Shown: positions 4,466 to 21,972 of the stretch, one piece after another
How the letters are laid out: each line of letters opens with the position of its first letter
Numbering within the stretch: position 1 is the stretch's first letter
Virus record (IMG/VR): IMGVR_UViG_3300008517_000250
Span: 1 to 22,298 of that record
Source: a virus
Direction: 5' to 3' (one strand)
Length of the DNA: 22,298 nt
The notes under the pieces: generated by a model
Seen by the model: the letters and a program-made list of their open reading frames with translations, nothing else
Database searches by the model: none
What the model was told of the DNA's origin: nothing
Position numbers and translations under genes: made by a program

Positions 4466-4984
4466 ATGAATATAAGTAAAGAGTATATAGATCAAAAAGC
4501 AAATGATTCAGCTACATCTCCAAAGAACAATCTTCCTATGCCTACAGAAGAACAAAAAAAGAATGGTGATTATAAAAAGGGTCATGTAAAAATACACGGT
4601 TTAAATATAAGTATAGAAAACCCAAAAGGTAGTATTAGAAGTGGTACAAGCTCAGAAGGTAAAAAATGGTCAATAAAATTAAAAAATCATTATGGGTATT
4701 TTAGTGGAGATAATATAGGAAAGGATGGAGATCCTGTAGATGTGTTTCTAGGTCCAGAACCCCAAAGCGAAAATGTATTCATTGTAAATCAAAAAAATAG
4801 CGAAGATAAATTTGACGAACATAAAGTCCTGCTAGGATTTAATAAATTTAAAGATGCTGTTAATGGTTATCTAGATAATTATGAAAAGGGTTGGGATATG
4901 ATAATGTCTGTACATCAAACTCCATTAAATAAATTTAAAGATTGGTTAAAATCAGGAAAAACCAAGATGCCATATAAGGATTAA
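4466..4984 (+). CDS. Pyrophosphatase-fold protein (phage InPase type)
   Basis: This 172-aa protein carries HYGYFSGDNIGKDGDPVDVF (residues 75-94). It contains DGDPVDV (87-93), an exact match to the family I inorganic pyrophosphatase signature D-x-D-P-x-D-x, preceded by the usual Y-G-Y strand. The three Asp equivalent to E. coli Asp65, Asp67 and Asp70 are D87, D89 and D92. FDEHKVLLGF (116-125) supplies further acidic and Lys residues near where the enzyme has its second cluster. Similar InPase domains occur in phage polyvalent proteins. The likely role is hydrolysis of pyrophosphate or a related phosphoanhydride, but activity and substrate are not proven. It is translated within the baseplate operon, 2 nt after the gp25-like stop and 2 nt before the next start. 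Its own ribosome binding site is weak, suggesting coupling. Confidence 0.7.
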   Translation: MNISKEYIDQKANDSATSPKNNLPMPTEEQKKNGDYKKGHVKIHGLNISIENPKGSIRSGTSSEGKKWSIKLKNHYGYFSGDNIGKDGDPVDVFLGPEPQSENVFIVNQKNSEDKFDEHKVLLGFNKFKDAVNGYLDNYEKGWDMIMSVHQTPLNKFKDWLKSGKTKMPYKD

Positions 4985-8351: not shown

Positions 8352-9428
8352 ATGAACCTTTTGGAATTTACACAAGTAGAGGTAAAACCAGAGGAGGATT
8401 CAAAGGTTTATCGTTATATATCTAGAATTTTGGGAATAGAATTATCAGAAGTTTCTAAACCATGTTATAAACCAAAAGTCATAAAATACTTTTCAGATCT
8501 TCAACATATTTTAGGAATTGATGATGATAAAATAAAAGAATTTGTTGCTGGAATTGTTGTTCCATACCCCCATATATTTAAAATATATAAAGATAAATTT
8601 ACGGTATTATTATTAATAGCTACAATATATTATACTAGAAAAGAAAAACCAGAGATAGCCAAAGCATTTTTTACATTTCTAAATCTTAAATTTTATTCTA
8701 GTCGTGTACATAAACATTTCCAAAAATTTTGTAATGGAGATCTTTGGATTTTAACATTAGATAAATTATCTCCAAAACACTTGTTTAGAACCCAAAGAGG
8801 GGTATCAAGTGCAATATTATATATAGCAGAATTTGATTATAAAAAGAACAAGAAAAAATTAAAATCTTCAGAACTTCAAGATAAAGTATTGGGAGATATT
8901 GTATATGGGTTAAGAACAAAAATTGCTCAATCTGTCAGATCATTTGCCCAGTTATATTATAAATTATATGAAGCAGGGGCTACAAAAACTGGTACTGAAG
9001 AAGATGAAATTGGTGGGGTTAAACTAATAGCAGATAAAATCAGCATGACCATGTGTACATTTGGTCAGATTGATAAAGGGGCTTTGTCTAAAGCAATAAT
9101 TGGTAGTAGACTTAGAAAAGATTTATCAATATCAATAGTATCACAACTTTCTGTTTCAGAATATAAAGATAAAATAAGATTTATTATTATTCTAATGAGT
9201 AGACTTGGAGATTTAAAATCTGTTTGTAAAGAACCAGATAGACTAAGACTTATTAGAAGAATAAATTCTAATTTTAAAATAGGTGGTCGTTACCTACTTA
9301 AAAACGAAATAAAAGATTTACTTTACTCATTAGAGTCTGGATATCAATTAAAAAATTTGTATGATATTCAGTTAATTAATTTTTTTAGCCATTATTTGAC
9401 ACTTTTTATTGGTAGTAGAATCTGTTAA
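8352..9428 (+). CDS. Unknown basic helical protein at the end of the baseplate operon
   Basis: This 358-aa protein is not recognised. It is Lys-rich and predominantly helical, with no signal peptide. A hydrophobic stretch (FTVLLLIATIYYT, about residues 82-94) is probably a buried helix and not a membrane span. AAAGGAG precedes the ATG. It is the last gene of the + strand operon, after the gp6/J-like gene, so a virion or assembly role is likely but unsupported by any motif. Its TAA (9426-9428) interlocks with the TAA of the convergent gene (9427-9425) in the palindrome TTAA. Confidence 0.6.
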   Translation: MNLLEFTQVEVKPEEDSKVYRYISRILGIELSEVSKPCYKPKVIKYFSDLQHILGIDDDKIKEFVAGIVVPYPHIFKIYKDKFTVLLLIATIYYTRKEKPEIAKAFFTFLNLKFYSSRVHKHFQKFCNGDLWILTLDKLSPKHLFRTQRGVSSAILYIAEFDYKKNKKKLKSSELQDKVLGDIVYGLRTKIAQSVRSFAQLYYKLYEAGATKTGTEEDEIGGVKLIADKISMTMCTFGQIDKGALSKAIIGSRLRKDLSISIVSQLSVSEYKDKIRFIIILMSRLGDLKSVCKEPDRLRLIRRINSNFKIGGRYLLKNEIKDLLYSLESGYQLKNLYDIQLINFFSHYLTLFIGSRIC

Positions 9429-10825
9429 GATACCAAATCTTCCCATCTTGTATTAGAACTTGTTGGAACTCTTGGAGTAGGTTCGTTAACAGGACCAACT
9501 ACTTCAGTTTCTTTTTTTCCAATAGTTGCTACTTCGTCTAGCTCTGTATCTATGACGGTTCCTGGTCCAGCTGGTAAATCTGCAAAGGATACCATATGAT
9601 CTATATATTCTTTAAATGTTGGTCTAAAAGGATCTTTGGCAAATCCTTCTGTTTTTGATTTGTCTTCTGCTATTATAGTTCCATACAAATCATTAAAAGT
9701 CATTTTTACATCTACTATTCCTGGTCTTTGTATAAATGAAATATTATTAGCATCTCCACCTTTTATTACCTCTATAGAAGATACATATGCAGCTTTTAAC
9801 ATAAATAACCCAGGACATGATACAGAACAGAGTACTGGATATGTAAATGTTGAAGGAGAATCTGAAATAGGAGTAACAAAAGCTAATAATTTTGCCAATG
9901 GTTCGACAATTAATTTTTTATGTAAACGAAAATCTCTAGGATTGTGATTATATAATCTTATAGAAACAGAATAAGATGGTGAATATGCAGAACCTTTCCA
10001 CATTTGGGGGAAATCTATTTTACTACCTGATAATATTTTAGACAATCCAGCACCACCACTAAGAGTTTCAAGAGCAGCTTCACCAACACCAACGATGCCA
10101 CCTCCTGCTTTAGTCAATGTTCCAAGAACAGGTCCCATACTTTCACCCATTCGTTTTAGTGCGCCTTTCATACTAGTTTCACCAGTCATATATCGTAATT
10201 CTTCTGCAGCACCAGCAGTCAAATTTCCTAATTGTTCAAATCTTGATTCTCCAAATTCTGAGGAGAATGATTCTGTTAAACTAGCATCATTTGTAAATGC
10301 CACATAGATACAATGTTCGTCAGTACTATATATACTACGATTCTCACCAAATGCAGAATCTAATATTAATTTATAGATCTCTCTGCCTCTCTCATATTCT
10401 AGATTGAATGTTTGTAATCCAGCTCTTTCACCATCTGGTAATCCTGGATATGCTGGATAAATAGCCATTATTGGCATAGATGACAAAATGAGTTCTCTAT
10501 CACTTATGGCAAGATCTTGGTCAAAAAGATAATTAGGAGGAAGTCCAATAACTTTGTCTGTATCTATATCTTTGCTAAAAGAATTCAAAACAGGTAAACT
10601 AGATTTTACTCTACTGGTTTTTTCCTCCATAGTAGCAAGTTTTTTTTCTCTTTCCAGTATCTTTTTTTGCTTTTCTAATGCTTCATTCCTTGCTTTTTTC
10701 TGTTTCTTTATAGCATTCCAAGCTTCTTGAGACATACCAGGAGGTTTAAATTCTAATCTATACCACGGTTCTTGTTTATATAATCCAGCAGCTTTTGCTT
10801 CCTCGTAAGTTCTAATCGGTGGCAT
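9425..10825 (-). CDS. Unknown tail/baseplate protein downstream of the tape measure
   Basis: This 466-aa protein has a charged helical N-terminal region (residues about 38-72, KKQKKARNEALEKQKKILER) and a Gly/Ala-rich segment (about 205-260). Its C-terminal half is beta-rich, with SAYSPSYSVSIRLYNHNPRD, then YPVLCSVSCPGLFMLKAAYV and VDVKMTFNDLYG. The last part resembles the style of T4 gp48/gp54-type tube-initiator proteins, with membrane-free strands ending in a VxMTFxDL motif; this is a weak inference. It starts 14 nt after the tape measure stop with GAAAGG upstream, so the two are co-transcribed. Genes following tape measures usually encode hub or tube-initiation proteins. Confidence 0.55.
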   Translation of the reverse strand: MPPIRTYEEAKAAGLYKQEPWYRLEFKPPGMSQEAWNAIKKQKKARNEALEKQKKILEREKKLATMEEKTSRVKSSLPVLNSFSKDIDTDKVIGLPPNYLFDQDLAISDRELILSSMPIMAIYPAYPGLPDGERAGLQTFNLEYERGREIYKLILDSAFGENRSIYSTDEHCIYVAFTNDASLTESFSSEFGESRFEQLGNLTAGAAEELRYMTGETSMKGALKRMGESMGPVLGTLTKAGGGIVGVGEAALETLSGGAGLSKILSGSKIDFPQMWKGSAYSPSYSVSIRLYNHNPRDFRLHKKLIVEPLAKLLAFVTPISDSPSTFTYPVLCSVSCPGLFMLKAAYVSSIEVIKGGDANNISFIQRPGIVDVKMTFNDLYGTIIAEDKSKTEGFAKDPFRPTFKEYIDHMVSFADLPAGPGTVIDTELDEVATIGKKETEVVGPVNEPTPRVPTSSNTRWEDLVS

Positions 10826-10839
10826 GGTTAATTTCCTTT

Positions 10840-13800
10840 CTAATTTAATCTTCCGCTTAAAATTCTCTCAATGTCTTCATCGACTCCTGGTTGTGCAACG
10901 TTTGTATTTGTAGCGTTGTTTACGAGAGAGTTTGAGTTATTTATTTGGTTTGTAACAACATTGTTGGTAGGATTTCGTGAAATCATTGCTTCTTGTAATT
11001 TTTTGTTTCCTTCTAATAATCTGTCCGCACCAACTTTTTGTTTGGCAGATTCTAATATAGCTTCATGCTCTGCTATAGCTCTAGGATTAGTTAATGTAGA
11101 GCCATTCATCATACGTGCAAATTTATTTAAAGGAATAACTGCTTCTGGACCACTTTCGCCAATAAGGCCCATTGTAGGTTTAGTTACAATTCCACCTCTT
11201 GCAAATCCAGTTGCTCCAAATTTTTCTTTCATCCAAGCACTACCTCTACCAAAAAAGCTACCTGTTGGCATTGATTCTATTGCTTCATCTCCACCACCAA
11301 GCCATGGTATTTTTCCCTTTAGCCAATTTTTGAATTTTCTCATGAGTTTTCCAATTATTTTAAAAGGCCAAGTAACAAAATCATAAATTGCAACCGCTAT
11401 TTTCTTTACAGGTTCCCAGACTGCTTGTAAAGCTTTTGTAATATTTTTTCCTCCAATGGCTCCTAATATTCCTCCAGCCAATGCTCCAATAGCCGCACCA
11501 ATTGCAGTTCCAAATCCAGGTACAATACTTCCAATACCAGCACCAATAGCAGCACCCTTAGCAGTTCCCCATGCAGTTCTAGCAGCTAAATTTTCAAAAG
11601 TACCTCCCAAAAATCCTCCTACTCCGGCGGTTACTTTTTGAGATGTAGATAAGTCTTCACCTTCTTTTACACCATGCCATGCTCTAGCCTTTTTAACACC
11701 CCTAAAAGCGTCGAATGCAGCCATTGCTATTCCAGCAACTCCAATTGCAGCCATTATAGCTGGCATTATAGCTGGTAGCATGTTTTTCATCATTTGAACT
11801 TTATTTTTCATACCTCCAAATCCAGGCAAACCAAATCCAAATTCTTTTAATAGAATCTGATAAATGCCTTTTGTATATTTTACTAACAGTGCTGGCCATT
11901 TAGCATATACATATTTGCCTTCTGAATCCATTGCTATTGGGGCTTTCTTTCCGCCAGGTTTTAACCATTGTATAACACCTTTAACTTTTTCTTTTGCTTT
12001 CTCTTTGAATTTTAGATATTTATCCTTAATGGCTTCAAATGGCCTCATAATAAATCTACCAATTGCTTTGAATGGAGCTGTTATTACAGCCCAAGCAGTT
12101 GACATAGCGGTTTTGATGGTGGTAACTCCAACATTAATAGTATGTCTTAAAGCAGTAAATCCTGTTCTCATAGCAGACAATATTGTATGTCCAACATCAG
12201 TCAGCATTTCTATACCTTTTGAAAGACCTTTTGCAACTCCTTGTGCTATACTAGAACCTATTTGAAATGGTAGTTTAGCTAATATTACACCAATATCTGT
12301 TATCCCCCTAAGAAGACTTCCAAAGATACCCATAGTACCTTTTACTATTTTTGCCTTTTTAGTTTCATGGCCAGGAACTCCGCCAAGAATTCCTATAATA
12401 ACATCTAGTCTATTAATAATCATATCTCCAAGACCCATGTTTCCAAGTGCTTCTGAAAACATCCCAGATATTCTTGCAGTTGCTTTAGGATCATCCAATG
12501 GGATAACCGCTTCTGGCCCAGCTTCTCCAACAACTACACCTCTAGCAGCATATAACAAACCACCTCTTGCCATAGCTGGTGCTTTAACAAATGATGAAAA
12601 TCCCGAAACACTCTCTCCTATTTGAGAAGAAATAATTTTCATCTTAGTCCATAGAGTTCCAAAATCCTCAATTATTCTTGAAAGAGAATAACCTTTAGTT
12701 CCTTTTCCAACCCATACAATATCATTCCAAGTATTAACAATAGCTTCTCCAAGAGGAGCAAATGCTGCTTTTACTATTTTGAATAAGTATTGAAAAATGC
12801 CAGTAACAACTCCAGCTATACCTGGTCTTCTTATTCTGGCTTCTGTATAAGTTTTAGCTGCTTCATCCATGGCTTCAAATGCACCATAAAAAGATCTAAA
12901 AGATACTTGTGACCATTCTAAAAATCTATCAGAGATAGCATTAAATAATTTAGCCCAAGATTCTGGAAGAATTTTTTCTACAAGGTTTCTTCTTACATCT
13001 CCAAGAATATTAGGTATATCAATAACAGATACTTGTTGCACACTCTCAGAAAATTTTTCTATTATAGTTGTAGCATTCAATATATTTCCAATTGTTTTAA
13101 ATAAATCTTTACCAAGAGGTATTAATCCTTTTATAGCTTCCCATGTAGATTTTGGAATTGCTCCTATGACCTTAAGTACCTGGGTAAATGGTGAACCACC
13201 TTTTTCCCAAGCATCTTGAAATGGTTTTACTACTTTGATGCCGTAATTATATAAAACCTCTAAGAATTTTGAAGTCTCTCTTGATAAATCAGAAGTTGCC
13301 TGTAATGCGGATACAATAACTGTTTTAACAGAGCTAAATATTTTACCACCAGCCTCTTTAAATATATCTGGTATTAATGTTTGATATGCTTTTATTATTA
13401 TAGATCCTATTCCAGTTTTTCTATCAAATTCTTGACTAAATATCTCTTTTATATTTTTACCTATGTTCGTTAGAGTTTTTTCAACAATTATTGGTAATTC
13501 TCTAATAACATTAAATATTCCACCGAATATAGTTTCTTTTCCACGTTTTTGAACAAGTACTCCCGCTCCACCCACTAACTCTGTTACTTTGGCACCTTTA
13601 CCAATTCCAAATGCAGTTTCTATTTCATACATTGCTTGTACTGCTGGTTCAAGAAATGAAAATGTTGCCTTAAACCAATTCAACATTTGATCTATTTTAG
13701 ATGTTAATGGTGCAAATATACTTGCAACCCAGGCTTTTATTTTTTTGAATATACCGCCACTAAATAACCCAGCAATTCCTCCGAACATTCTAGAAAAAAA

Positions 13801-15582
13801 TCCACCTCTACCGCCACCAACTGTTTCCCCAGCATGTAATTCAGCTGCTCCTGTTTTTGTAACAACGTGTGGTTGGTTTGCAGCTTTTGCTAATGATATG
13901 GGTTTTGCCATTGCTGATCCACCCTTATCTTTCATTATGTCTCGCATTTCTGTAAGAATTTCTTTAATATCTGAGAGTAATAATATTCTTCTTGCCAAAC
14001 TAGGAGATGCTCTAAGCTCTTCAGATTCTTTTTTGACACCTTTTGTTTTTAACCAGTCTGAATAACCAGGGATCATTCCCATTAAACCAGCACCTTTTTC
14101 TTTACCAATTCCAAGAATATTTCCAAAAAGATTTTTTGCTTTTCCTGTTATTACTTCCTTCATAAATGTTAAGGGACCAGTTTCTCCACTCATGGAGTCT
14201 CCTATTGTTTTTCCTATCCATTCAGATAAAGACCTTGGGCCTGGTCTCCATAATGATCCTGGTATTTCAAAACCAATTTGTAATAATCTTGCTTGTTGTA
14301 GAGCTAGTTTATTACTTTCTTCAGATGCAAATCTAGTATGAACATAAATCATTCCTAATGTTTGTAACATTGCCCCAAACATACCATATCTTCTAACTTC
14401 AGGAAGCTCTGCCCTGTAACCAGCTCCAAATATTGGAAGAGCATAGGCTATAGTAGTACCAAGTTTGAATACACCCGTAAACATTCTTTTAAATAAACCT
14501 GACCTACCACTTTCTTCAAGAGCCGACGTAAAAGATTTAGTCATTATCTTTGTTTGTACCTCTTCATCTGGTTTGGAGATTATATTATTAGTTTCCTCTA
14601 TTTTATTGGAAACTGTTCCAAGTTCTGTACTGAATTCTTCGCTAGGAGCAACTTCAAAGTTATCTCCCTCAGCTGGCATCATCTTAAAAATACCTTTTTC
14701 ACGGGTTTCTCTAGGAAATCCAGCAACAAATTCTGCTAATTTACCAACACCAAATTGTAAACCACCCATTCCTCGTCTAGCAGCACTACCAACGCCAGAA
14801 GCCATTCTAGATCCCATTCCAGGACCTCCTCCTCCGCCACCTTCTCCACCAAACAAGTTTGCAGTTGCAGATTCGAAGAACATTCCAGGGCCTAATCCCC
14901 CACCAGCTAATGCTAAACCAGTTCCAAGAGCTTTCTTATATCCTCCCCAAAGATCTGTTCTAACATTTCCTAATATATCTGTGGCAGCACCTTCTTGTAT
15001 ATCACCATATGCTTTAATTGCGCCAACTCCAGCTCTCACAGGAGCAGTTGCTGCTCTTGCACCAAGCCTACCTGTTCCTCTTAATGCTTTATAGCCCATA
15101 TAACCAGCACCAGCTAAACCTCCAATAGCAGCCCACTTTGCAAATTTTTTCATATGGTCGCCAACATATTTTAGGCTTTCCATATTCTTGTTTGTTATAT
15201 CTACAACATCTCCCATGGATGAACTAAGTTCTTTATTGGATGCAGATAATTCTTTTGCAGAAACTTTGAATTTTTCGCTAGATGTATCTAGTTTATAAGT
15301 TGCGTCTGATAATCCGGTTATAGTTTTTTCTAATTTATCAGATTTTAATTCTATTTCTTTTTGTATAACGCCACTTTTGATTTTTCTAGATGCAATATGA
15401 ACTTCTTTTGCATGTTCTTGCATAGCTTTAACATTTATAGCACCATTCTTCTTAATTAATTTAGTCTGTTCAGAAATATTACCTTTTAATTTAGAATTAG
15501 TGTCTACAAGTGATTTGTTCAGAACCCCTAGATTTTTTGTGAATTCTGCCTGTTGTTTCGAAAAATCATTTTTAGGTGGCAT
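10840..15582 (-). CDS. Tail tape measure protein
   Basis: This 1580-aa protein has the standard features of a tape measure. The N-terminus is long and helical (residues 1-150). There are several Gly/Ala-rich hydrophobic segments near the C-terminal third, and repeated surface-loop motifs typical of phage tape measures: VVVGEAGPEAVIPLDDP (about 12495-12540), GLIGESGPEAVIPLN (about 11130-11170) and a related AAELHAGETV (about 13820-13855). At about 0.15 nm per residue it would specify a tail of about 235 nm, which is an inference from the usual ratio. The start is set by GAGGAG before the ATG. Promoter block 4 lies just upstream. The gene is on the opposite strand from sheath and tube. Confidence 0.92.
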   Translation of the reverse strand: MPPKNDFSKQQAEFTKNLGVLNKSLVDTNSKLKGNISEQTKLIKKNGAINVKAMQEHAKEVHIASRKIKSGVIQKEIELKSDKLEKTITGLSDATYKLDTSSEKFKVSAKELSASNKELSSSMGDVVDITNKNMESLKYVGDHMKKFAKWAAIGGLAGAGYMGYKALRGTGRLGARAATAPVRAGVGAIKAYGDIQEGAATDILGNVRTDLWGGYKKALGTGLALAGGGLGPGMFFESATANLFGGEGGGGGGPGMGSRMASGVGSAARRGMGGLQFGVGKLAEFVAGFPRETREKGIFKMMPAEGDNFEVAPSEEFSTELGTVSNKIEETNNIISKPDEEVQTKIMTKSFTSALEESGRSGLFKRMFTGVFKLGTTIAYALPIFGAGYRAELPEVRRYGMFGAMLQTLGMIYVHTRFASEESNKLALQQARLLQIGFEIPGSLWRPGPRSLSEWIGKTIGDSMSGETGPLTFMKEVITGKAKNLFGNILGIGKEKGAGLMGMIPGYSDWLKTKGVKKESEELRASPSLARRILLLSDIKEILTEMRDIMKDKGGSAMAKPISLAKAANQPHVVTKTGAAELHAGETVGGGRGGFFSRMFGGIAGLFSGGIFKKIKAWVASIFAPLTSKIDQMLNWFKATFSFLEPAVQAMYEIETAFGIGKGAKVTELVGGAGVLVQKRGKETIFGGIFNVIRELPIIVEKTLTNIGKNIKEIFSQEFDRKTGIGSIIIKAYQTLIPDIFKEAGGKIFSSVKTVIVSALQATSDLSRETSKFLEVLYNYGIKVVKPFQDAWEKGGSPFTQVLKVIGAIPKSTWEAIKGLIPLGKDLFKTIGNILNATTIIEKFSESVQQVSVIDIPNILGDVRRNLVEKILPESWAKLFNAISDRFLEWSQVSFRSFYGAFEAMDEAAKTYTEARIRRPGIAGVVTGIFQYLFKIVKAAFAPLGEAIVNTWNDIVWVGKGTKGYSLSRIIEDFGTLWTKMKIISSQIGESVSGFSSFVKAPAMARGGLLYAARGVVVGEAGPEAVIPLDDPKATARISGMFSEALGNMGLGDMIINRLDVIIGILGGVPGHETKKAKIVKGTMGIFGSLLRGITDIGVILAKLPFQIGSSIAQGVAKGLSKGIEMLTDVGHTILSAMRTGFTALRHTINVGVTTIKTAMSTAWAVITAPFKAIGRFIMRPFEAIKDKYLKFKEKAKEKVKGVIQWLKPGGKKAPIAMDSEGKYVYAKWPALLVKYTKGIYQILLKEFGFGLPGFGGMKNKVQMMKNMLPAIMPAIMAAIGVAGIAMAAFDAFRGVKKARAWHGVKEGEDLSTSQKVTAGVGGFLGGTFENLAARTAWGTAKGAAIGAGIGSIVPGFGTAIGAAIGALAGGILGAIGGKNITKALQAVWEPVKKIAVAIYDFVTWPFKIIGKLMRKFKNWLKGKIPWLGGGDEAIESMPTGSFFGRGSAWMKEKFGATGFARGGIVTKPTMGLIGESGPEAVIPLNKFARMMNGSTLTNPRAIAEHEAILESAKQKVGADRLLEGNKKLQEAMISRNPTNNVVTNQINNSNSLVNNATNTNVAQPGVDEDIERILSGRLN

Positions 15583-16342: not shown

Positions 16343-16648
16343 TTAGTCCAGTTTCTTTCCTGCTTCTCTTTGTTTCTCTACCCAGGCAGCAAGCTTCTCT
16401 TGCATTTTATCAGCCCATACAGAAAGTTCTTTATTTCTAGTTTTATTCCAAACTTTTAAATTTATCAATGCTTTAGATATTTTTACCCATCCTTTTTTCT
16501 TTACTAGACTTTGGAAATGTCTCTCTGGAAGATCTTCCACATTTTTACCTTTTGGTACTTCTAATTTACCAGGCTCTTCTACAGGTATTTTAACTTTTTG
16601 TTCTCTCAATAAACCATCTAAAAAATTCTTTTTAGTGTTTGATTTCAT
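16343..16648 (-). CDS. Small basic protein with shared leader (B)
   Basis: From the second of two adjacent ATGs this encodes 101 aa. The first ATG (16651) overlaps the previous stop as TAATG but is only 3 nt from AAGGA, while 16648 has about 6 nt. The N-terminus KKNFLDGLLREQ aligns without gaps with KGFLDTFINNEE of the histone-like protein and KGCLKNILKEQT of the upstream protein. The rest is basic, with PVEEPGKLEVPKGK, then a Trp- and Lys-rich helical tail (KMQEKLAAWVEKQREAGKK). There is no membrane segment or known catalytic motif. Function unknown; packaging in the virion is inferred only from the leader and neighbours. Confidence 0.65.
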   Translation of the reverse strand: MKSNTKKNFLDGLLREQKVKIPVEEPGKLEVPKGKNVEDLPERHFQSLVKKKGWVKISKALINLKVWNKTRNKELSVWADKMQEKLAAWVEKQREAGKKLD

Positions 16649-16650
16649 CA

Positions 16651-16998
16651 TTAATCCTTATAAGCTTTCAATTTCAATTTTAATTTGTCTTCTCTAGTTT
16701 TTAATTTATTTAGAAAATCATCTATTTTTTTACAATCTTTTCCAACACAGTTTTTTCTTTCTTTTTCAAGTCTTTTTCTAGTTTCCTCAATTAAAACTAG
16801 ATTACATTCTATATTTTCTTTTCCTCGCATTCTATAGCATTCGTTTTTCCATTTAGCAAGTTTTTTACCTAACCACTTACTAAAATCTTTTAATCTATTA
16901 TATGACCATTTAACAATATCAAATAAAAGATCTACAGGTATTGGAATCATTGTTTGTTCTTTTAAAATATTCTTTAAACATCCCTTTTTCGTTTTCAT
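16651..16998 (-). CDS. Small basic protein with shared leader (C)
   Basis: This 115-aa protein begins MKTKKGCLKNILKEQT, similar to its two downstream neighbours. It then has an IPIPVD segment (compare KIPVEE in protein B), a Trp-rich basic helix (KWLGKKLAKWK, compare EKLAAWVEK in B) and a Lys/Glu coiled-coil-like C-terminus with ETRKRLEKERK and LNKLKTREDKLKLKLK. Cysteines occur in an NECY, IEC and KNCVGKDC pattern. AAAGGA precedes the ATG. Proteins B and C may be diverged paralogues. Function unknown. Confidence 0.65.
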   Translation of the reverse strand: MKTKKGCLKNILKEQTMIPIPVDLLFDIVKWSYNRLKDFSKWLGKKLAKWKNECYRMRGKENIECNLVLIEETRKRLEKERKNCVGKDCKKIDDFLNKLKTREDKLKLKLKAYKD

Positions 16999-17011: not shown

Positions 17012-17314
17012 TTAAATTTGTCTTATCTTTTTCCATGGAAGAATTGTATGATTTAGTGTTAATTCTTCTCCTTTATATATTGTCCTAGTAGTAAATATAT
17101 AATACTTCCACCTAGATATTTTTATAAATAAGTTGGGATTTTTTGAATGACCAATATTTTTACCTAGTTTGGTTTCTACAATATCTCTTTTTGGATCTCC
17201 AGTTCTTCTAATTTTGAGGAAACCAATACCTAAATTTGTAGCTCCAGGTATTATAGTAGATGCAAATATTCCATTTGATTTTATTTCTATATATTGTATT
17301 TGTATTTTAGGCAT
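17012..17314 (-). CDS. Small SET-domain-like protein
   Basis: This 100-aa protein matches the order of SET lysine-methyltransferase motifs. Residues 14-34 (NGIFASTIIPGATNLGIGF) fit the first strand pair GxGxFA..I..G. LGKNIGHSKNPN (50-61) fits the NHSxxPN motif that binds S-adenosylmethionine, with G in place of the first N. YYIFTTRTIYKGEELTLNH (71-89) fits the ..A.RdI..GEELT.dY block. The position of the usual catalytic Tyr after GEELT appears to be His/Asn, so activity is uncertain. At 100 aa it is about the size of minimal viral SET proteins (PBCV-1 vSET, 119 aa). It is transcribed from its own promoter block and lies upstream of three Lys-rich proteins, which are possible substrates. Confidence 0.6.
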   Translation of the reverse strand: MPKIQIQYIEIKSNGIFASTIIPGATNLGIGFLKIRRTGDPKRDIVETKLGKNIGHSKNPNLFIKISRWKYYIFTTRTIYKGEELTLNHTILPWKKIRQI

Positions 17315-18834: not shown

Positions 18835-19149
18835 CTAACCATTTTCAGTTTGTGTTAATGAATCTACAAACTCTTTAATGACATTAAATAACTGAACACC
18901 AATATATCGTTGAATTATATTTCCATCTTTAAATATAATCAAAGTTGGAATACTCTTGACTGAGAATCTTGCTGCTAATTTAATTTCTTCATCAATATTT
19001 ACCTTGCCTATTTCTATAATTGGATTTAATTTTATTAAAGTTGGTTTCATCATCATACAAGGCACACACCAAGATGCCCAGAAGTCCATTAAAATCAATC
19101 CATTTTTTCCAATTTCAATATCAAAATTTTTTTCTGTAATTTCTATCAT
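18835..19149 (-). CDS. Thioredoxin
   Basis: This 104-aa protein has the whole thioredoxin fold. The active site is W27-C-V-P-C31 (canonical WCGPC, with Val for Gly) within DFWASWCVPCMMMKP. VNIDEEIKLAARFSVKSIPT contains the cis-Pro, and LIIFKDGNII fits the next strand. There is no signal peptide, so it acts in the host cytoplasm as a dithiol reductant, for example for ribonucleotide reductase or for phage proteins. AGAAGGA precedes the ATG. It is the last gene of a run of small - strand genes. The Gly-to-Val change should alter redox potential or partner choice, which is an inference. Confidence 0.92.
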   Translation of the reverse strand: MIEITEKNFDIEIGKNGLILMDFWASWCVPCMMMKPTLIKLNPIIEIGKVNIDEEIKLAARFSVKSIPTLIIFKDGNIIQRYIGVQLFNVIKEFVDSLTQTENG

Positions 19150-20567: not shown

Positions 20568-20690
20568 CTATTTCAGTATTGATCCTTTTTTGATAACTGG
20601 ATTAAATAATTCGACCTTTATCTTACCTCTACCATAACAATTGGAACATATCCTTTGATATATAAAACATTGTTCTCTCCATTGGTTAAT
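20568..20690 (-). other. 40-codon CxxCxGxG reading frame without an ordinary start codon
   Basis: The open frame after the upstream TAA (20693-20691) reads INQWREQCFIYQRICSNCYG, then RGKIKVELFNPVIKKGSILK and TAG. It contains CSNCYGRG, an exact C-x-x-C-x-G-x-G half-site as in DnaJ zinc fingers. There is no ATG, GTG or TTG in frame ahead of the motif; the first codon after the stop is ATT. Its TAG overlaps the ribosome binding site of the next gene, as real genes here do. It may start at ATT, be a readthrough extension of the upstream protein, be reached by frameshift from ATG 20682, or be a decayed gene. Confidence 0.4.
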
Positions 20691-21116: not shown

Positions 21117-21152
21117 CTAAATCTTCCTTATCTTAACAAACCATTATTTAAA

Positions 21153-21175
21153 GGGCCTGGAATAATTCCAGACCC
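21153..21175 (-). terminator. Probable terminator after the cytochrome-like gene
   Basis: On the - strand GGGTCTGGAA/TTCCAGGCCC forms a 10-bp stem (one G-U pair) with a 3-nt loop, followed by TTTAAATAA. The T tract is short. The hairpin may work in both directions. It lies 43 nt after the stop codon at 21218. The remainder of the gap 21117-21217 shows no gene. Confidence 0.6.
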
Positions 21176-21217
21176 TTATCTTCCCACTAGACCGATTTTC
21201 TGGACAATTGATCAAAA

Positions 21218-21592
21218 TTATAAACAGAGAAATAAATATATTGTAAACCCAGTAATATCTTCACATTTTGGGCCTGAACTTCCAAAGTTAGAAAATCTTG
21301 GTTCTATAAAGAGATGTTTAGAAAGCCAGTCAATGGTATCTTTTGGGGCTGTTCGATTACGCAGATCGCTTAGATCAGGAGCCATATTACTATTGCTTCC
21401 ATCTATAGAATGACACATTTCACAATTGACTTCTGCGAATAACCCATTTAGAGTTTCACAGGATCTATCTTCCGTAATTGTGGTTGAAATAATACAATCT
21501 GAAGATGTTGGACCTGATAGTAATATCTCTTTGGAGAACGCCTTTGCAGAAAGTAATAAAATAAGTATCAAAAGTATAATAGCTTTTTTCAT
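21218..21592 (-). CDS. Exported c-type cytochrome-like protein
   Basis: This 124-aa protein has a clear Sec signal peptide (KK, hydrophobic core IILLILILLL, then SAKA as a likely cleavage site near residue 18). It has one c-type haem attachment motif, C57-E-M-C60-H61, in FAEVNCEMCHSIDG, followed by APDLSDL as in class I cytochromes (PxL after the haem motif). A DTIDWLSKHL helix and a C-terminal helix EDITGFTIYLFL correspond to the last two cytochrome helices. The usual distal Met (MP motif) position reads GPKC; no Met follows residue 70, so the sixth ligand would be unusual. AAGGAGG precedes the ATG. It would act in the periplasm and needs host cytochrome c maturation. Phage-borne cytochromes are uncommon. 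Confidence 0.7.
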   Translation of the reverse strand: MKKAIILLILILLLSAKAFSKEILLSGPTSSDCIISTTITEDRSCETLNGLFAEVNCEMCHSIDGSNSNMAPDLSDLRNRTAPKDTIDWLSKHLFIEPRFSNFGSSGPKCEDITGFTIYLFLCL

Positions 21593-21628
21593 TTTGTAAA
21601 TCCTCCTTGTTTAATAGTTTGGGTTTTG

Positions 21629-21949
21629 TTACGACAATTGTAATTTAACCCTCATGAAAAACATTCTTATAAATCCAAAAAATCCACGATATTTGTTATA
21701 AAGAGACATGAAATCTTTGGCTGAAAAGATGAGTTCACCAACCTTTTTGTAATGACGAATACTTCCAAACGACATCGTTTTGGTTTCATGATTAATATCT
21801 ATACAAGATTGATTTCCAAACATTTTCCAGTGGCCTCTCGCGCTCGCACCATCCCAACGATAACCTAAATCAATTAGGAGATCGTTTATCTTTTCCCATA
21901 ATCTTTTTTTAGATATATGTACTATAAAAGAATCTTTACCTAAAGCCAT
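21629..21949 (-). CDS. Unknown small protein
   Basis: This 106-aa protein has an N-terminal module IVHISKKRLWEKINDLLIDL-GYRWDG followed by SCIDINHETKTMSFGS, then an aromatic, basic tail (FFGFIRMFFMRVKLQ). The K/E helix, LGYRW and short strand pattern resembles small phage proteins of unknown function that share a (L/A)GYxW turn. There is no motif to assign activity. AAGGAGAAATAAA precedes the ATG. It lies between a membrane protein and the cytochrome-like gene in one likely operon. Confidence 0.6.
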   Translation of the reverse strand: MALGKDSFIVHISKKRLWEKINDLLIDLGYRWDGASARGHWKMFGNQSCIDINHETKTMSFGSIRHYKKVGELIFSAKDFMSLYNKYRGFFGFIRMFFMRVKLQLS

Positions 21950-21972
21950 TTTATTTCTCCTTTTTGGTTAAA

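Follow-up and report, generated by a model that had tools for sequence, protein, structure and literature searches.

A phage cargo gene for a predicted exported c-type cytochrome that lacks the distal methionine

In this work, a gene for a predicted exported c-type cytochrome without the distal methionine ligand was found among the genes of a phage of the T4 superfamily. The window, by which we mean the whole stretch of 22,298 nucleotides that was analysed (IMG/VR record IMGVR_UViG_3300008517_000250), is a virus record of 22.3 kb that encodes tail components of this superfamily (sheath, tube, baseplate and tape-measure-like proteins), and a related contig encodes a T4-type large terminase. The product of a 124-codon reading frame, which starts with ATG and was judged real, is almost certainly a c-type cytochrome with the class I fold, as indicated by sequence profiles and structural models. 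The haem-attachment motif CxxCH lies near the N-terminus of the domain and the model has the N-terminal, middle and C-terminal helices of the fold, but the distal Met is missing. Because the strict class I definition fails on this residue, we classify the protein as Met-less with a class I fold. Judging from sequence and model, it most likely functions by binding small molecules at a haem whose sixth position is open or has another ligand, and the reading in which the sixth position is open or weakly liganded is given a probability of about one half. All conclusions on this cytochrome rest on one sequence from one metagenome fragment.

The features of the locus are collected in Table 1. The ribosome-binding site of the cytochrome gene is the fullest of its region. 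The N-terminus of the product (MKKAIILLILILLLSAKA followed by FSK) is a standard signal peptide with a hydropathy of 2.4, AKA before the likely cleavage site and no lipobox. The reading frame thus carries a predicted export signal, and the description of the protein as exported in the initial annotation agrees with sequence and hydropathy. The CEMCH and APDL motifs and the absence of Met beyond residue 70, to which that annotation had also pointed, were confirmed from the sequence, in which the last Met is residue 70 and GPKC occupies residues 107–110. A single copy of the motif C..CH...G......PDL is present in the window, and 100 shuffles contained none. The protein has six cysteines, at positions 33, 45, 57, 60, 110 and 123, and Cys33, Cys45 and Cys123 are extra residues that had previously gone unmentioned. 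The four cysteines outside CxxCH could occupy the sixth site of the haem or make disulfides.

Table 1. Positions of the cytochrome gene, its sequence elements and its neighbours in the window
Feature	Position	Strand	Remarks
Flanking phage gene	20691..21116	-	Syntenic counterpart at L004 6937-7383
12-bp hairpin, -18.5 kcal/mol	21151..21177	-	Directly 3' of the cytochrome gene; terminator-like, U-poor after the stem; missing from L004; unflagged in consensus scan
Met-less c-type cytochrome ORF, predicted exported	21218..21592	-	124 aa; mature protein about 106 aa, 11.7 kDa apoprotein, pI 4.6
GSSGPKC, residues 104-110	21263..21283	-	Takes the place of GSxMPK in the Nitrospirota domains; Gly107 aligns with Met in this register, Cys110 three residues further on
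Phe100	21293..21295	-	Aligns with Met in the other register, RFSNFG versus RMPNFG
APDL loop, residues 71-74	21371..21382	-	Lies as far from CxxCH as in cytochromes c of bacteria
Haem-attachment motif CEMCH, residues 57-61	21410..21424	-	His61 is the presumed proximal ligand
Predicted signal peptide, residues 1-18	21539..21592	-	From sequence and hydropathy; likely cut after AKA
Ribosome-binding site AAGGAGG	21602..21608	-	9 bases 5' of the cytochrome ATG
Upstream neighbour gene, 106 aa	21629..21949	-	No relative found; missing from L004 together with the cytochrome gene
Flanking phage gene	21973..22191	-	Syntenic counterpart at L004 7424-7627

The assignment to the cytochromes c was examined with several kinds of comparison. 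The Pfam families Cytochrome_CBB3 (PF13442; 17.4 of 27 bits, E 0.0055) and Cytochrom_C (PF00034; 17.5 of 21.3 bits, E 0.011) were matched below their curated cut-offs, and no match to SoxD or another named cytochrome c family of NCBIfam was above cut-off. The weak NCBIfam matches up to E 1 were all (6/6) to cytochrome c or haem-binding c families, and several weak tblastn matches in plasmids were cytochrome genes. In the related phage, a bare CxxCH is also present in a DnaJ-like zinc-finger protein, and therefore CxxCH alone is insufficient for calling a cytochrome. By scanning bacterial genomes with patterns made from the query and from invented variants, the invented sequences being used for the patterns alone, at least 24 loci with related cytochrome c domains were found in many phyla. 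CxxCH is present in all relatives, as the initial annotation had expected of homologues, though most of them were found with patterns that contain CxxCH. A profile was built from 25 natural cytochrome domains, taken from the scan loci and from locus L008. The phage protein scored 39.1 bits on this profile of bacterial domains, and 2,000 shuffles that kept CxxCH had a mean of 3.6 and a maximum of 14.8 bits; the score is somewhat inflated because some relatives were picked by their similarity to the query, but the gap is still large. In this phage and its relatives, which together have 1,049 reading frames, the runner-up reached 6.4 bits. Furthermore, hhalign gave probabilities of 98% and 97% against two different families.

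Structure prediction pointed in the same direction. The AlphaFold model from the single sequence was uninformative (pLDDT 40). With 24 sequences, 23 of them bacterial relatives, the model, which was made without haem, had a mean pLDDT of 78 and a pTM of 0.66, with helices at residues 45–54, 83–93, 98–106 and 110–123 in the class I order. In a Foldseek search, the 40 best PDB matches were all c-type cytochromes or complexes with one, including NorC, SoxX, Kustd1711, cd1, c551 and c6; each of these matches is weak singly, the top one having an E of 0.09 and a probability of 0.93. No match to the model was found in a fold search of viral structure models. The sub-threshold Pfam scores and the poor single-sequence model would be expected if a chance CxxCH had arisen in an exported Cys-rich phage protein that is no cytochrome, but this is highly improbable, because the profile, the shuffles, hhalign, the model and the fold search all point to cytochrome c. 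The small cytochrome c proposed initially is thus supported, and the cytochrome fold for which a predicted structure was to be checked is present.

Of the 36 aligned relatives, 35 have Met in the distal-ligand column. In the phage protein this column is taken by Gly107 or Phe100, depending on the set of relatives, and never by Met in any alignment. With 20 relatives of the first set, MAFFT in eight settings placed Phe100 in the Met column (RFSNFG versus RMPNFG), and hhalign agreed. With 16 domains from the Nitrospirota search, Gly107 was placed there in 8/8 settings (GSSGPK versus GSIMPK), and the local HMMER match to these domains (41 bits) spans the Met site. When both sets were combined, Phe100 was in the column in seven of eight settings and Glu97 in the eighth. 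The register is ambiguous, and as a matter of judgement we favour Gly107, because the second family is more identical across the loop. The initial equation of GPKC with the canonical MP site accordingly stands for the Nitrospirota domains, whose Met aligns with Gly107, and does not stand for the broader relatives, whose Met aligns with Phe100. A frameshift as the origin of the Met loss was rejected, since the domain and the last helix share one frame and no other frame restores Met-Pro. His93 was set aside as a sixth ligand because His is also common at this position in Nitrospirota domains that contain Met.

Alternatively, Cys110 or Lys109 might be a firm sixth ligand, and the protein would then be a six-coordinate low-potential carrier or a NaxLS-like NO binder. 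In the register that we favour, Cys110 lies three residues past the Met-equivalent Gly107. Moreover, in the diheme cytochrome Kustd1711, to which both the phage model and the phage sequence show a weak PDB match, the haem of the Met-to-Cys mutant M292C stays six-coordinate (PMC11791136). On the other hand, Cys110 is on the Met column in no alignment, it begins the C-terminal helix in the AlphaFold model, and a disulfide is equally possible for it. We regard a firm Cys or Lys ligand as a doubtful alternative, although one to be kept in mind, to an open or weakly liganded haem.

The cytochrome gene lies between two phage genes, so that contamination with host DNA was rejected. Two related viral contigs were found, a 42-kb record (L002, L004, L005) and L003. 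Both flanks are syntenic with the related phage L004, which bears out the earlier claim that the gene is phage-borne. The two flanking genes adjoin in L004 (7383-7424, as compared with 21117-21972 in the window), and the cytochrome gene, its upstream neighbour and the hairpin are missing there. By this comparison, the cytochrome gene is a predicted phage cargo gene, a moron-like insertion separating two genes that are next to each other in a relative. A DnaJ-like gene is a further difference from L004 in this region, and since both this gene and the cytochrome unit differ, the region is regarded as a variable cargo region. With two genomes compared, gain in the window phage and loss in the L004 phage both fit and cannot be told apart. 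Promoter-like sites were not more frequent than in shuffles.

It could also be supposed that the phage holds a decaying passenger, i.e. a cytochrome c taken from a host and now without its Met and without function. The gene occurs once and is missing in L004, the stretch from the Met site to the last helix is about five residues shorter than in the Nitrospirota domains, and the same variable region has a remnant of another gene. However, the signal peptide, CxxCH and the last helix are intact in one open frame, and the gene has the region's fullest ribosome-binding site and a hairpin of its own. Its base composition (GC 34%, 22% at the third position) is near that of the phage (GC 31%), which also argues against a very recent capture. 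Decay is regarded as unlikely.

Other genes of the window and of L004 were noted. At 20571-20655 (-) of the window lies the C-terminal remnant of a DnaJ-like zinc-finger protein (ending in CSNCYGRGKIKVELFNPVIKKGSILK before the stop), whose longer relative is at L004 6250-6921. A thioredoxin without signal peptide (WCVPC; window 18835-19149, -) and a small SET-domain protein (window 17012-17314, -; Pfam SET E 7.5e-6) are kept in L004, and the L004 counterpart of the latter is fused to a second domain that resembles the window ORF 16343-16651. Amid the baseplate genes, a free-standing protein of 172 residues (window 4466-4984, +) matches a domain within giant phage proteins of several PHROGs (endolysin, minor head protein, DarB-like), with E down to 5e-48. 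L004 also encodes a subtilisin-like protease (10285-11763, -) with a signal peptide and a tail of the calcium-binding type (DKDGDG...CNDNDANINPDATEICNDGIDNNCD), and a protein that by eye is macro-domain-like (14253-14708, -; VHGCNCFCTMGAGIAKSIKENFPEAY).

Although phages carry many metabolic genes, a soluble electron carrier of the cytochrome c type is a great rarity in their genomes. A survey of nitrogen-cycle genes in viruses states that none of the necessary electron carriers, among them cytochromes, was seen in the phages (PMC8115048). In our searches, the motif C..CH...G......[GA]PDL was found at three loci in 2.9 million viral contigs, namely in a NorC-like gene that has bacterial-type genes next to it (L008) and, by chance, twice in one antisense stretch (L009, L010). 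A wider pattern gave 11 stretches in viral contigs with no confirmed relative, and a nearly identical pattern gave at least 595 matches in bacterial genomes. Cytochrome c motifs of this type are thus almost absent from the 2.9 million viral contigs, the motifs covering part of cytochrome c diversity. The L008 stretch (8964-13528 of IMGVR_UViG_3300011383_000005) holds NorC-like, NorB-like and tryptophanyl-tRNA synthetase-like genes and looks, by eye, like bacterial DNA filed as viral.

No orthologue of the phage cytochrome was found by tblastn in 50,697 phage records and 72,556 plasmids, nor in the viral contigs, in both related phage contigs, in 58 genomes of the phylum of locus L014 or in 395 Bacteroidota genomes. 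The nearest sequences are cytochrome c domains that form part of larger proteins in Nitrospirota, Nitrospinota and Planctomycetota, the phylum names being those of the loci at the search centres, with about 29–41% identity over 40–66 residues. None of them is an orthologue from which a donor or a host could be named. The expectation that the gene would inform on them was not borne out, no close homologue being present in any collection searched.

We hypothesize that the gene is cargo of a T4-superfamily phage and encodes a monohaem cytochrome c drawn from the bacterial class I pool. During infection, the protein would be exported by Sec and its signal peptide cut after Ala18. The cytochrome c maturation system of the host, assumed to be Ccm, would then attach haem through Cys57 and Cys60, His61 being the proximal ligand. 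With Gly107 or Phe100 standing in place of the distal Met, the sixth position would be open or weakly filled by water, Lys109 or Cys110. The product would be a periplasmic low-potential or ligand-binding haem that may bind or react with NO, sulfide, CO, O2 or peroxide. It would protect or tune envelope respiration in the infected cell and would not be a standard Met-ligated shuttle. The loss of Met suggests handling of gases, peroxide or redox stress in the envelope of the infected cell rather than mere electron shuttling. It would mean that a phage exporting its own haem protein depends on the host for haem supply and cytochrome c maturation, and that infection is tied to envelope respiration. 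It is possible, and we put it forward tentatively, that the protein is a natural open-site cytochrome c with extra cysteines, a periplasmic binder of gas or peroxide that protects or reprograms respiration, and of a free-standing viral kind not described before.

An exported protein with a cytochrome fold might instead be a decoy or inhibitor, docking on the partners of host cytochromes (oxidase, bc1, reductases) with abnormal electron transfer, and thereby rewiring or slowing respiration or blocking superinfection. Small exported cargo proteins of phages often act on the envelope, which would suit such a role as well as the predicted export does. The phage protein matched no known defence families, however, and we consider this role quite unlikely beside an open or weakly liganded haem.

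Among the relatives, the Nitrospirota and Nitrospinota domains (L045-L050, L060, L036-L043) share CxxCHxIxG......PDL with the phage protein, and the Nitrospirota set also shares WLxxHF..P..xxPGSxMPK, apart from the Met loss of the phage. These relatives are mostly domains of frames of 400-900 residues that keep the Met ligand, whereas the phage protein is free-standing and Met-less, carries a signal peptide and is extended at the N-terminus by a segment with two cysteines. NaxLS have an unusual His/Cys ligation. They are likened to the phage protein by description only, as small c-type cytochromes with unusual ligation, but they are host proteins and bind hydrazine synthase. NaxLS of Kuenenia, which are small NO-binding cytochromes c, are cited in PMC8388095 and PMC7438415. 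Viral auxiliary soxD genes, which encode the cytochrome subunit of sulfane dehydrogenase, are known with cytochrome motifs and some of them without (PMC8190135). Like the gene described here, soxD lies on phage contigs and encodes a cytochrome c with a role in redox chemistry; it specifies a subunit of a known enzyme and was once found beside soxC (PMC8190135), whereas the phage cytochrome gene has no enzyme partner. Kustd1711 (PDB 7ZS0, 7ZS1; M292C mutant) matches the phage protein weakly in sequence and fold, but it is diheme, calcium-binding and, in the wild type, Met-ligated (PMC11791136). Horse cytochrome c M80A binds O2, and dissociation of Met80 raises peroxidase activity (PMC10041640). 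This mutant and M59A of H. thermophilus c552 have the class I fold in common with the phage protein, and theirs is an open sixth position that binds O2 (PMC10041640). Since cytochrome c without Met80 binds O2 (PMC10041640) and a Met-to-Cys mutant of another cytochrome c keeps six ligands (PMC11791136), an open site and His/Cys ligation are both chemically reasonable. M80A and M59A are laboratory mutants, whereas the missing Met would make the phage protein a natural counterpart of such Met80 mutants.
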